A stretch of DNA of 30,385 nucleotides from a virus. A model generated the notes under the pieces. The model saw nothing but the letters and a program-made list of their open reading frames with translations, was not told the origin of the DNA and did no database searches. The position numbers were made by a program, and so were the translations under genes. The first letter of the stretch is position 1, and each line of letters begins with the position of its first letter. Positions 16,144 to 20,810 of the stretch are shown piece by piece. The DNA lies in IMG/VR virus record IMGVR_UViG_3300017727_000091, positions 1-30,385 of that record; one strand, given 5' to 3'.

Positions 16144-16680
16144 ATGGATTTCCCTGATAAAAAATATAACATCATTTACGCAGATCCACCCTGGTCATTT
16201 AAGAATTTTAGTAAAAAAGGTGAGGGTAGAAATCCTAATCAGCATTATGAAACACAAGACTTGAACTGGATCAAGTCTTTACCTGTAAATGACATAGCTG
16301 ATAAAGATTGTGTTTTATTCCTATGGGTAGTTAATCACTCTTTACCACAGGCATTTGAAGTTATCGAAAGCTGGGGCTTTACTTACAAGACAGTAGCTTT
16401 CAACTGGGTTAAAAAAAATATGAGATCCGAGGGATTCTTCACTGGTTTAGGATATTGGACAAGAGGAAATCCAGAATTATGTTTATTAGCAACAAAAGGA
16501 AAACCAAGCAGAGTTTCTAAAGCTGTAAAAGAATTAGTAATAGAACCTAGATCTAAACACAGCAAAAAACCAGACAGAATTAGAGATGATATCATTGACT
16601 TGTGTGGTGATCTCCCTAGAATTGAATTGTTTGCAAGGAATACGACTAAAGGATGGGATGTATGGGGGAACGAGATTTAA
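16144..16680 (+). CDS. MT-A70 family N6-adenine methyltransferase
   Basis: A 178-residue enzyme with the MT-A70 catalytic motif DPPW (14-17) right after YNIIYA, and the family's conserved flow LFLWV...WGFTYKTVAFNWVK...GLGYWTRGNPELCLLATKG...HSKKPD...RIELFAR...GWDVWGNE. It methylates the N6 position of adenine, in DNA in bacterial and phage members. It starts the second methyltransferase operon and is probably translated from a leaderless mRNA. It is followed by a paralogue that overlaps it by 19 nt. Confidence 0.9.
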   Translation: MDFPDKKYNIIYADPPWSFKNFSKKGEGRNPNQHYETQDLNWIKSLPVNDIADKDCVLFLWVVNHSLPQAFEVIESWGFTYKTVAFNWVKKNMRSEGFFTGLGYWTRGNPELCLLATKGKPSRVSKAVKELVIEPRSKHSKKPDRIRDDIIDLCGDLPRIELFARNTTKGWDVWGNEI

Positions 16681-17210
16681 TACCTTTTCCAGAAAAGAAA
16701 TATAATATTATTTATGCTGATCCACCCTGGTCTTATGATTCAGGTTTTCTTAAAAGAAATTGGGAGGGCAAATATCCTCAGATGAAACCACAAGAGATTT
16801 ACGATCTACCAGTGCAAGATATAGCAGACGACAATTGTATTTTGTTTATGTGGATCACTTATCCTAAATTACTTATAGGTTTGCAAGCTATGGAAAGTTG
16901 GGGATTCAAGTATCGCAGTGCAGCGTTTACTTGGGTTAAAAGGAATAAGAAAGCAGATACTTGGTTTTGGGGCATGGGGCATTGGACTCGTGCTAATGCT
17001 GAGGTCTGCTTTCTGGGTGTAAAAGGAAAACCTCAAAGAGAAAGCGCAGGCGTTCACTCAATCGTTGATGAAAGAATACAAGAACACTCAAAAAAACCAG
17101 ATGTAGTTAGAAATAAAATTGTAGAGCTTTGTGGAGATCTACCAAGAATAGAACTATTTGCCAGACAAAAAGCTGATGGTTGGGATAATTGGGGAAATGA
17201 AACTCTATAA
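16662..17210 (+). CDS. MT-A70 family N6-adenine methyltransferase, paralogue
   Basis: A 182-residue enzyme with DPPW at 20-23 and the same conserved blocks as its neighbour (LFMWI, WGFKYRSAAFTWVKR, GHWTRANAEVCFLGVKGKP, HSKKPDVVRNKI, RIELFAR, GWDNWGNE). I start it at the ATG at 16662, which has AAAGGA about 8 nt upstream, rather than the in-frame ATG at 16653. The two genes clearly arose by duplication but have diverged a good deal, so they may recognise different sites or act as a pair, as MT-A70 heterodimers do in eukaryotes. Confidence 0.88.
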   Translation: MGERDLIPFPEKKYNIIYADPPWSYDSGFLKRNWEGKYPQMKPQEIYDLPVQDIADDNCILFMWITYPKLLIGLQAMESWGFKYRSAAFTWVKRNKKADTWFWGMGHWTRANAEVCFLGVKGKPQRESAGVHSIVDERIQEHSKKPDVVRNKIVELCGDLPRIELFARQKADGWDNWGNETL

Positions 17211-18114
17211 AGGCGACTGTTTAGATTTTATGAAAGAACTAGAGGATGGATCTATAGATCTAATCTTATGTGATCTTCCGTTTGGCCTTATGAAAAACAT
17301 AGGTGAGGATGACGGCAGATTTCAAAATGGCATGCTTGGTAAATTTGATTGGGATGACTCTGTAGATCTTGAAAAGTTTTTCTTCTTGTCAGAAAAGCTA
17401 CTTAGAGAGTCAGGTAGATTAATTCTTTTTGGCATACAGCCGTTTACAACCACTTTGGTAAATCACGCAACATTGAGTTTGCCTTTTGCTTATTCTATGA
17501 TTTGGGAAAAGGATCACTTCGGTGCAGCCTTTCAAGCAAAAAGAGCTCCACTAAACTTTTATGAAGATATATTGGTATTTACTAAAAGATACGATTCAAC
17601 ATTTAGCAATCCACTAAGACAGTACTTTGAATGGTTATTAAAGCATATAGGAAAAAGTAAAGCTCGCTTGATTATGGAATTTGGACAAAAAGCTGATCAT
17701 ACTTTTAGAACTAGAAGTACACAGTTTAAGCTATGTACAGAGGAAACTTATAACGAAATTGTTGAGAAATATCAGATTCAAGATAACGAAAAGTTCATGC
17801 CATACGATCTCCTTAAAAAGATAAACGATCAATACGCGCAAACTTTCAATCTATCTGATGAAGATACATTCAAAAGTAACATACTTAAGTACCCTAGAGA
17901 CAGCGAAAAACACCACCCTACTCAAAAACCTGTTGATCTTCTTGTTAATTTAATTGAAACATTTACAAATGAGGACGATGTTGTAGCTGACTTTACTATG
18001 GGAAGTGGTAGTACTGGAGTTGCAGCTAGGAAAACAAACAGAATATTCTTAGGATCCGAGTTAGATGAGGACTTCTATGATATTGCCTACAAAAGAATAC
18101 AAGGCCAGCTTTGA
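17197..18114 (+). CDS. Beta-class DNA methyltransferase (DLPFG type)
   Basis: A 305-residue enzyme from the ATG at 17197 (MKLYKGDCLDFMKELEDGSI), chosen because that opening is typical; the frame is open back to 17158. Motif IV is DLPFG (26-30), HPTQKPVDLLVNLI lies near 235, and motif I is ADFTMGSGSTG (264-274), ending in LGSELD. It is longer than its relatives because of an insert of about 70 residues between motif IV and HPTQKP (FEWLLKHIGKSKARLIMEFG...), likely the target recognition part. Probably an N6-adenine enzyme. It overlaps the MT-A70 gene by 14 nt. Confidence 0.87.
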   Translation: MKLYKGDCLDFMKELEDGSIDLILCDLPFGLMKNIGEDDGRFQNGMLGKFDWDDSVDLEKFFFLSEKLLRESGRLILFGIQPFTTTLVNHATLSLPFAYSMIWEKDHFGAAFQAKRAPLNFYEDILVFTKRYDSTFSNPLRQYFEWLLKHIGKSKARLIMEFGQKADHTFRTRSTQFKLCTEETYNEIVEKYQIQDNEKFMPYDLLKKINDQYAQTFNLSDEDTFKSNILKYPRDSEKHHPTQKPVDLLVNLIETFTNEDDVVADFTMGSGSTGVAARKTNRIFLGSELDEDFYDIAYKRIQGQL

Positions 18115-18770
18115 AGTTAATTAACGGAGATTGCCTAAAAATAATATCGGAAATGCCAGAAAACAGCGTAGATCATGTTTTTACTAGCCCACCTTACAAT
18201 ATTGGCAGAAGTAGATCATTAGATTCTAAAGCTAAGGGTAAATACAAGCACTTTTCCGACAATAAAGATAACTACTTAGATTGGTGTACAGAAATCATAG
18301 ATCAACTTCTTAGGATCACAAAAGGCTATGTTTTTTGGAATATTCAAGCAAATGCTTTAAATAAAGCTGATGTTTTTAAACTTATTGGTCATTATGCAGA
18401 TGTGTTGGAACAAAACTTTATTTGGTATAAACCTAATGCTACACCTAGTTCAAAGCAGTATTATGTTTCAAATGTTGTCGAATATGTTCTTTGTTTCTCA
18501 GAAAAGAAAGTAAAAGGCAACCAACACTTCTTAAAAAATTATGTAGAGATAAATAAAGGAACTAAGTACATAAAAGATTTAAACGCACAAATGCCAGTAT
18601 CTTTATCTGATCACTTTATTACAAACTACACACAAAAAGATGAAGTTATACTGGATCCATTTATGGGATCTGGCACAACAGGAGTTTCTTGCAGTAATGG
18701 ACAAAGAGACTTTATTGGTATAGAATTAGTTCAAGAGTACTACAAAATAGCAAAGGAAAGACTTACATGA
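18111..18770 (+). CDS. Beta-class DNA methyltransferase (TSPPYN type)
   Basis: A 219-residue enzyme starting at TTG (18111), which overlaps the preceding stop (TTGA). Motif IV TSPPYN (25-30), an NAQMP segment in place of HPTQKP, and motif I DPFMGSGTTG (182-191) are all intact. It resembles the first gene of the window (199-924) in motif IV more than its neighbours. The N4-cytosine versus N6-adenine choice is open. The stop overlaps the next start by ATGA. Confidence 0.88.
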   Translation: MKLINGDCLKIISEMPENSVDHVFTSPPYNIGRSRSLDSKAKGKYKHFSDNKDNYLDWCTEIIDQLLRITKGYVFWNIQANALNKADVFKLIGHYADVLEQNFIWYKPNATPSSKQYYVSNVVEYVLCFSEKKVKGNQHFLKNYVEINKGTKYIKDLNAQMPVSLSDHFITNYTQKDEVILDPFMGSGTTGVSCSNGQRDFIGIELVQEYYKIAKERLT

Positions 18771-20377
18771 GATTAGGCAGCATGTTTGCAGGTATCGGTG
18801 GTGTAGATCTTGGCTTGATTAGATCAGGCTTAGTTACTGATGTTAAATGGCAAGTTGATAACGATGAGTTTTGTACAAAAATTTTAAAAAAGAATTTTCC
18901 AGATAGTTTAGTAATGCACAAAAATGTAGAAGATATAAATACAAAATATTTACCAGAAGTAGATATGATAACGGCAGGTTTTCCATGTCAGCCTGTGAGC
19001 GTGGCAGGAAACCAGAAAGGAGTATTAGATGAAAGATGGTTATGGGATGAGGTCGAAAGATTTATTGATGAGTTACGACCACAAGTCTTCATGTTGGAAA
19101 ATGTCCCCAACATCCTCAGAGCAAGCAACGGAGAGGCAATTCATCGTGTCCTCAAAAGTGTGGCCGAAATGCGCCATTATAGATTTGAATGGCAACTTAT
19201 ATCAGCAAAGTTCGTTGGAGCAAGGCACAAAAGACAAAGATGGGTGGGAGTTGGAATCGTGGGAGACTCCGAACACTATGGATCACTTGCCAGCGAGATC
19301 AGGGGACGCTTTGGAGAGAGCGCTATATCGTGGAGATCCAGAGAGGAAGAGCAAAAGAAAATCTACTGGCAACTTGCGAGAAAATCCGAAAATTTGGCTC
19401 ACACCGACAACAATGGATCAGAAAGAGGACAGCCTGAAACACGCAACGAAACTGATGCAGGGGAAAACGAGGAGAGCTACAGGTCATCGAATACAGAGAA
19501 CATTGAGCGATCAAGTATGGATGGACATGATAGAAAAGGATCCGACCTTGATGGAGTATTACCAGGATCACGAGATAGTCAAGAGACCAATGCTTCCAGA
19601 TCAAATGGAGTTCGTGGATTATCTGAGAAGTCAGACATCAGCAACCAAACTACAGAAGTTGACCAAGATCAAGAAGTCGACAGTGGATCACTGGTTCAGG
19701 AAGGACAAGTACTTCAGTCATCCGACAGTGGATCAGTGGATTCAGATCAAACCACACCTAGAGGAGATCAAGTACGACAAGGAGTTGATGACAGTACAGG
19801 TAATGGAGTGGAAAACCAAAGAGGAGATGGAAATGTGGCCGACTCCCTCGACACAGGACAACGAACACAAGAATTTGGAATTGAACGACAAGGGCAGGAG
19901 AGTAGCAAAGACTGGGGGCGAGAGCAGATCTCTGAACCTAGCAGACAAAGTGCAGGTGAGGAAAAAGGAAACATTTTCGACACCAGCAGCCTCTCAAGCA
20001 TCAAAGCCAGTCAATCGCCATACCCCATCAGCGAGAGCAGGGAAACATGGCTCTACTTTGGAACAGGACATTGGGGAACGAGATCCCACATTGATTGGGA
20101 TGCGCCTCAATCCAGCATGGGTGAACAGACTTATGGGTTACCCAGATGGTTGGCTGAGCTTGGACTAACAAACGATTGGGGAGTTGGTAATGATTGGGAA
20201 GATGGTCAATCTAGAGTTGCCGAAAGAAAAGAAAATGATGTTGATCGACTTAAAGCTCTGGGTAACGGAGTTGTTCCACAGTTTTCTGAACTGGTAGGTA
20301 GATTAATTATTAAATCACTTATTGAGGATACTTTAGTGTTTGATCCAGAGATTGTTAAGGTAGATCGTCCTCACTAA
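18767..20377 (+). CDS. C5-cytosine DNA methyltransferase
   Basis: A 536-residue Dcm-type enzyme. Motif I is FAGIGG (7-12), the catalytic motif IV is GFPCQPVS (71-78, nucleophile C74), motif VI ENVP (111-114), motif VIII RHKRQRWVGVG (153-163), and the late motif RLKALGNGVVPQ (494-505). All catalytic residues are present. The stretch of about 280 residues between VIII and the late motif, where the target recognition domain belongs, is Ser/Asp/Glu/Gln/Gly-rich (VGDSEHYG, NLAHTDNNGSE, NVADSLDTGQR) and overlaps a second long open frame whose translation looks more like a normal recognition domain. Last gene of the operon. Confidence 0.88.
   Translation: MRLGSMFAGIGGVDLGLIRSGLVTDVKWQVDNDEFCTKILKKNFPDSLVMHKNVEDINTKYLPEVDMITAGFPCQPVSVAGNQKGVLDERWLWDEVERFIDELRPQVFMLENVPNILRASNGEAIHRVLKSVAEMRHYRFEWQLISAKFVGARHKRQRWVGVGIVGDSEHYGSLASEIRGRFGESAISWRSREEEQKKIYWQLARKSENLAHTDNNGSERGQPETRNETDAGENEESYRSSNTENIERSSMDGHDRKGSDLDGVLPGSRDSQETNASRSNGVRGLSEKSDISNQTTEVDQDQEVDSGSLVQEGQVLQSSDSGSVDSDQTTPRGDQVRQGVDDSTGNGVENQRGDGNVADSLDTGQRTQEFGIERQGQESSKDWGREQISEPSRQSAGEEKGNIFDTSSLSSIKASQSPYPISESRETWLYFGTGHWGTRSHIDWDAPQSSMGEQTYGLPRWLAELGLTNDWGVGNDWEDGQSRVAERKENDVDRLKALGNGVVPQFSELVGRLIIKSLIEDTLVFDPEIVKVDRPH
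19029..20168 (+). other. Second open frame inside the cytosine methyltransferase gene
   Basis: A 379-codon frame, shifted +1 relative to the methyltransferase frame. Its first part (to about 19259) opposes the conserved catalytic motifs and is probably non-coding. From 19260 it reads WETPNTMDHLPARSGDALER, later WLTPTTMDQ, MWPTPSTQD and FSTPAASQ, and ends LNPAWVNRLMGYPDGWLSLD. Repeated W-x-TP-x-T-x-D segments and a final LNPxWVxxLMGxPxGW are what I know from recognition regions and C-termini of many phage and bacterial C5-cytosine methyltransferases. It may be a separate overlapping gene, a frameshift product, or a relic. Confidence 0.5.
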
Positions 20378-20660: not shown

Positions 20661-20755
20661 TTCACCTATAGCCTATATTTATTGAATTTTATTTTTTTCT
20701 TGTCCGTGTCACTGTCCTAGGACTTCCGTGTCAGGTTCACTCGGATTTCCTGCGC

Positions 20756-20810
20756 TAGAGTAGAGTAGAGTAGAGAAGACTAGACTAGAGTAGACTAGAG
20801 AAGAAAAGAG
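20756..20810 (+). repeat. Pentamer repeat, TAGAG/TAGAC
   Basis: Eleven consecutive 5-mers, mostly TAGAG or TAGAC with AAGAC, AAGAA and AAGAG variants. TATAAT (20813-20818) follows at once and is 24 nt before the first gene of the 20843-21563 operon, so the repeat covers the -35 region and upstream. Because the period is 5, TAG stops occur in all three plus-strand frames. Confidence 0.75.

Follow-up and report, generated by a model that had tools for sequence, protein, structure and literature searches.

Over most of its length, a cytosine methyltransferase gene in a marine phage reads as protein in two frames at once. Are both readings used and, if so, what does each contribute? In the window, that is the whole 30,385-nucleotide stretch of viral DNA that was analysed, the main frame of the + strand holds an ORF of 536 amino acids plus stop at 18767–20377, the large subunit of a C5-cytosine methyltransferase, which we call alpha. 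Fully nested within it, in the +1 frame of the same strand, a second ORF (beta; 19029–20168, 379 amino acids plus stop) encodes a putative subunit for target recognition and motif IX, so that the two overlap by ~1,140 bases. A first-pass annotation had drawn attention to 19260–20168; it had the right place, but the +1 ORF begins 231 nt further upstream. Prokaryotes rarely have long overlaps on one strand with both encoded proteins conserved, and such cases are often disputed. Here there are ~1.1 kb of overlap, an internal start that can be placed to the base and about 70 diverged clusters to compare. We consider it highly probable that the locus is a split two-subunit C5-methyltransferase made from fully nested genes, with beta translated independently from an internal ATG and Shine-Dalgarno (SD) sequence.

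Four more DNA methyltransferase genes, two of the MT-A70 and two of the N6/N4 type, lie immediately 5′ of alpha (window 16144–18770). The alpha ATG shares bases with the stop codon of the last of them (ATGA, 18767–18770), an overlap that suggests translational coupling of alpha to this preceding gene. On the 3′ side of the methyltransferase, a noncoding stretch contains short tandem units (agtagag/actagag; window 20740–20800). Comparison of terminases did not place the phage or its host lineage, the closest terminases being only ~25% identical.

Alpha carries most of the hallmarks of a C5-cytosine DNA methyltransferase (PF00145). Its residues 1–255 match this Pfam family with E=4.5e-45, residues 1–514 match phrog_363 in PHROGs, residues 2–159 match M.HhaI in the PDB, and motifs I, IV, VI, VIII and X are all present. 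Motif I (FAGIGG, 18785–18802), motif IV (GFPCQP, with its PCQ; 18977–18994), motif VI (LENVP, with its ENV; 19094–19108) and motif VIII (RHKRQRW, 19223–19243) are invariant in 50 alphas, as are G499 and N500 of motif X (RLKALGNGVVPQ, 20246–20281). Motif IX is absent from alpha and sits on beta, in the +1 frame; alpha is not of the monomeric C5 form, in which motif IX and the TRD are part of the chain that carries motifs I–VIII. Between R158 of motif VIII and R483, not one residue is invariant among the 50 alphas. A structural model of alpha is confident for most of residues 1–200 and near motif X, and pLDDT lies below 50 over beta, at residues 212–300 and 302–487. Judged by conservation and by this model, the alpha overlap at 19241–20168 is an unconserved, predicted-disordered linker.

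Beta holds what alpha lacks. Near its C-terminal end lies LNPAWVNRLMGYPDGW (20106–20153), which is near-invariant among 55 betas. The first-pass annotation had recognized here a C-terminal pattern of cytosine methyltransferases, and the sequence is indeed C5-methyltransferase motif IX; because this motif is present in the +1 frame and absent from the main frame, however, the frames complement each other rather than encoding two versions of one domain. Further upstream, W/F-x-TP segments are spread over 19260–19988 (WETP at 19260, WLTP at 19395, WPTP at 19836 and FSTP at about 19974; residues 78, 123, 270 and 316), and a helix-turn-helix (HTH)-like module occupies 19584–19779 (residues about 186–250). 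The position of the W-x-TP region between motifs VIII and IX, together with its variability, suggests that it may contact DNA. The HTH-like module shares 52% identity with part of an unrelated enzyme, an N6/N4 DNA methyltransferase of a Staphylococcus phage, where it is read in frame; this supports, independently, a real domain in the +1 frame.

Searching databases with the +1 translation, as had been proposed at the outset, returned a profile match to phrog_1008, annotated ‘DNA methyltransferase’ (E=2.3e-6, best stretch residues 262–376), as well as relatives in viral contigs and GTDB genomes; 22 beta relatives are 66–100% identical. We found no sequence relatives of beta in the PDB. Modeled alone, beta reaches a mean pLDDT of 48, and the HTH-like module is its sole confident part (residues about 187–255, pLDDT about 75–88). 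The poor model elsewhere is as expected for an obligate subunit, though no proof of one. We do not claim a fold for beta beyond the HTH-like module, as structure matches in the PDB were weak (best E=0.37) and only that module was modeled confidently.

A protein with a HTH-like module might instead be a separate DNA-binding or accessory protein that was overprinted in alpha and is no methyltransferase subunit; an HNH endonuclease encoded out of frame within a phage methylase provides a published precedent (PMC11855218). We give this reading a slight probability. Beta carries motif IX, exactly what alpha is without, and matches phrog_1008 under the name of a DNA methyltransferase. Moreover, in five loci (L031, L033, L034, L159 and L189) the C-terminal part of beta shares its frame with alpha or with motif X.

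The low-complexity character of alpha over the same bases follows from the genetic code. TGG-CCN-ACN-CCN encodes W-P-T-P and, read one base earlier, (V/L/M)-A-(D/N/H/Y)-(S/T/A/P). Words such as ‘VADS’ in alpha are thus a mechanical shadow of beta. The VADS/WPTP pair that had first been noticed on shared bases is present at 19836, and LAHT/WLTP at 19395 and VGDS/WETP at 19260 are in register in the same way. For the 216 W/F/L/Y-x-TP segments in 74 beta clusters, the commonest alpha-frame readings are VADT, VADS, VADA, VANT, VAHA and the like.

Which of the two frames does selection see? We counted substitutions between the window and a related locus, L004, by alpha codon position, with alpha position 1 corresponding to beta position 3. 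Upstream of beta (18767–19028, 88 codons), the changes at alpha positions 1/2/3 number 8/0/26, mostly at third positions, and downstream of it (20169–20374) they number 7/5/31. Where the beta N-terminus lies over alpha motifs VI–VIII (19029–19240, 70 codons), the counts drop to 3/1/3; alpha third positions changed in 26 of 88 codons upstream and in 3 of 70 here (Fisher p=2.5e-5). Over 19241–20168 the pattern switches to 54/12/6, that is to changes at beta third positions (p=2e-16). Comparison with loci L008–L022 shows the same codon-position pattern. These counts indicate that selection acts on alpha in the flanks, on both frames in the doubly constrained segment 19029–19240, and mainly on beta in 19241–20168. 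Protein identities agree with this division: over 19241–20165, beta is 97% identical to that of L004 and alpha 81%, and in L008–L022 the values are 73–78% for beta versus 51–58% for alpha. Constraint in a single frame, which the first-pass annotation had named as evidence against its proposal, is therefore found in half measure: over 19241–20168 nearly all amino-acid constraint falls on the +1 frame, and stops are kept out of the main frame.

This openness is far from what chance would give. When the beta protein was recoded with synonymous codons, a mean of 32 alpha-frame stops was expected, and when beta codons were permuted within the gene 14 were expected; none is observed, and none of 2000 shuffles reached this absence. 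The original observation of two protein-like frames over 19260–20168 is borne out by these numbers. At the level of codons, T is used at the third position in 0 of 73 beta codons where it would create an alpha stop, versus 48 of 141 elsewhere. Conversely, recoding the alpha protein over 19028–19240 yields 5.6 stops in the +1 frame (3.1 when permuted), against none observed (p about 0.0005). Across 74 clusters a stop count of zero is built into the way the ORFs were defined, and the weight accordingly rests on the recoding test in the window and on 188 loci with an unbroken alpha. One could suppose that function requires beta and the two ends of alpha alone, with the alpha frame over 19241–20168 decaying or bypassed by skipping or splicing, and open by coincidence. 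Such a reading would sit well with a linker that is unconserved, predicted to be disordered and faster evolving than beta over the same bases. Yet it would have to account for zero stops where 14–32 are expected, for the complete avoidance of synonymous codons that make stops, and for an alpha that stays open from the N-terminus to motif X in 188 loci, and we regard it as very improbable. Rather, on this comparative evidence, the alpha frame is kept open across beta by selection and is otherwise drifting over 19241–20168. Since motif X lies 3′ of beta, the alpha overlap must stay open as a linker.

The start of beta can be located to the base. Inside the alpha codons for QKGV lies an SD sequence, AAAGGAG (19016–19022), 6 nt before the ATG at 19029; AAAGGAG followed by 6 nt and an ATG is a canonical bacterial start. 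Among 20 relatives, alpha third positions are free to vary up to 19015 and invariant from AAA GGA (19016–19021) onward, and the beta ATG itself is invariant. In 54 of 72 clusters, the first beta ATG is preceded by at least 4 nt of SD-like sequence, compared with 18% of 501 control ATGs taken from the other frames (p=8e-22). A programmed +1 frameshift near 19240 was also conceivable, and had been put forward in the first-pass annotation as a way of swapping recognition domains: it would fuse the catalytic N-terminus of alpha to the recognition region of beta and so make a second form of the enzyme. That beta always occupies one and the same (+1) frame would suit such a shift, as would the third positions around 19211–19260, which are invariant too. 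However, a programmed frameshift would bring second-frame constraint from the shift site onward and have no separate start, whereas constraint on the beta frame begins at the SD and ATG (19016–19031) and not at a shift site, more than 200 nt before the first W-x-TP segment. In addition, SDs are enriched at first beta ATGs across clusters in general, and the fused product would be without motif X, which remains in the alpha frame. We therefore place very little credence in a frameshift. Because beta constraint begins at a conserved SD and ATG, a pattern left unexplained by a shift near 19240, the sequence evidence identifies dual coding by internal initiation at the ATG at 19029; dual coding, the other option offered initially, was the right one, given selection on both frames and the conserved internal start.

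The arrangement is not peculiar to this phage. A search profile built from ten betas turned up more than 500 relatives among viral contigs and 211 among the species genomes of GTDB, the taxa including Paenibacillus, Brevibacillus, Clostridia, Roseovarius, Bacteroidota, Desulfobacterota and Planctomycetota. We assembled 209 loci, nearly all collected through similarity to beta and a few by way of alpha matches in named phages, and classed them with alpha and beta HMMs; an earlier classing by regular expressions had missed diverged forms of motif IV. In 200 of the 209, alpha and beta overlap, beta being in the +1 frame; in the 188 loci mentioned above, alpha runs unbroken from its N-terminus to motif X, the median overlap being 792 nt. 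The 200 nested loci form 74 clusters at 50% identity, so their number does not stem from one lineage. Nesting common to about 74 diverged clusters also refutes the notion that the gene had lately switched frames. Of 369 genomes sampled separately from one class, 11 had beta, and in all 11 it lay +1 over alpha. In one of these (L230, 947–1733) an in-frame stop splits alpha into two pieces while beta is open, possibly through decay or a sequencing error. One uncultured Roseovarius chromosome (OX638333.1) holds five copies of the region with the nested pair (L136–L140) with identical match statistics, possibly several related prophages.

A few loci are built differently. In L031, L033 and L034, the alpha frame itself contains motif IX as well as a WRTP segment, and a shortened, beta-like N-terminal ORF is kept in the +1 frame; these constitute a third architecture. 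In L159 (2308–3607) and L189 (2238–3522), a short alpha with motifs I–VIII overlaps a beta-frame ORF that extends to motif X, resembling M.AquI. This arrangement suggests that nested and AquI-type splits interconvert.

Close relatives also differ by whole modules. L024 is without two W-x-TP units that L023 has, one W-x-TP unit is missing in L018–L022, and the HTH module is missing in L023 and L024; the length of the alpha linker follows the loss of beta modules, from 336 to 187 amino acids. The proposal that recognition modules are shuffled in both frames at once thus holds for gain and loss of whole modules, but repeats do not obviously drive it: only three short two-copy DNA repeats were found at the locus, which leaves repeat-driven shuffling unsupported. 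We tentatively entertain, with somewhat less than even confidence, a history of reciprocal overprinting. The beta N-terminus would have arisen over alpha’s old catalytic motifs and the alpha linker over beta’s old recognition domain, with W-x-TP units and the HTH cassette (which an adenine-type methyltransferase also has) being gained and lost in DNA that is read both ways. If so, specificity would change by cassette exchange, and the other frame would only need to stay open; few of the same-strand dual-coding gene pairs known from phages and bacteria would be as long or as widely conserved.

How might the two chains work together? Comparative sequence analysis directly supports selection on both frames, a conserved internal beta start, the division of motifs between the frames and their wide conservation. 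In the split enzyme that we favor, alpha would supply catalysis and cofactor binding (motifs I–VIII and X), and beta, read from its own internal start, would supply the target-recognition region and motif IX. To get to motif X, alpha would be read through the entire beta gene, its overlap serving as a flexible, disordered linker selected mainly for the absence of stop codons. We infer that beta is translated, that alpha and beta chains assemble into one active enzyme, and that this enzyme methylates phage DNA at sites set by beta. The nested arrangement would explain both the long low-complexity ‘VADS/VAHT’ linker and the missing motif IX in many phage cytosine methyltransferases. Taken for single genes in cloning or annotation, such enzymes would seem to lack activity, and gene callers with a penalty on overlaps drop the recognition subunit.

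Homologues of beta have been annotated before. They include the phrog_1008 proteins and the ‘internal gene’ pairs of Paenibacillus larvae phages (such as SHELLY_55/SHELLY_56), where SHELLY_56 is already recorded as ‘g55 internal gene’ within Shelly’s cytosine methyltransferase, its role being unstated in the record. Among the matches listed, roughly half of 60 phage records have two features under the match, several of them two methyltransferase genes. Those passages found in two P. larvae phage genome papers contain no discussion of the nested ORF. A published account of phage-wide nesting was not found in the open literature searched, which is weak evidence of its absence.

Three known systems bear comparison. 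Lee et al. (1995) reportedly found that, in the two-polypeptide enzyme M.EcoHK31I, the coding sequence of the small subunit overlaps that of the large subunit in an alternate frame. The phage-encoded HNH endonuclease mentioned above (ShiLan domain) likewise lies out of frame within the methylase gene of a phage, whose own frame is kept open (PMC11855218), but it is a mobile homing endonuclease and no methyltransferase part. M.AquI (CYCGRG) is, like the enzyme proposed here, a C5-methyltransferase in two chains split near the recognition region; its small subunit carries motifs IX and X (PMC3404938), whereas motif X stays on alpha here (20246–20281) and the genes are nested. In M.EcoHK31I (YGGCCR), the large chain carries motifs I–VIII and X and the small chain motif IX, and the predicted TRD was placed on the large subunit (PMC3404938). 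By that description, alpha, with motifs I–VIII and X and no IX, corresponds to the large chain, and beta, with IX, to the small one. By contrast, the recognition-like region (W-x-TP, HTH-like) is on beta here. A search of E. coli genomes with a nested gammaproteobacterial pair gave no match to an EcoHK31I-like pair. Because TRD placement differs, we do not file the locus as a member of the M.EcoHK31I type, the EcoHK31I TRD assignment being itself a prediction. Rather, by analogy, the locus appears similar in its working to M.EcoHK31I, the closest of the known systems, and would represent a variant of it.
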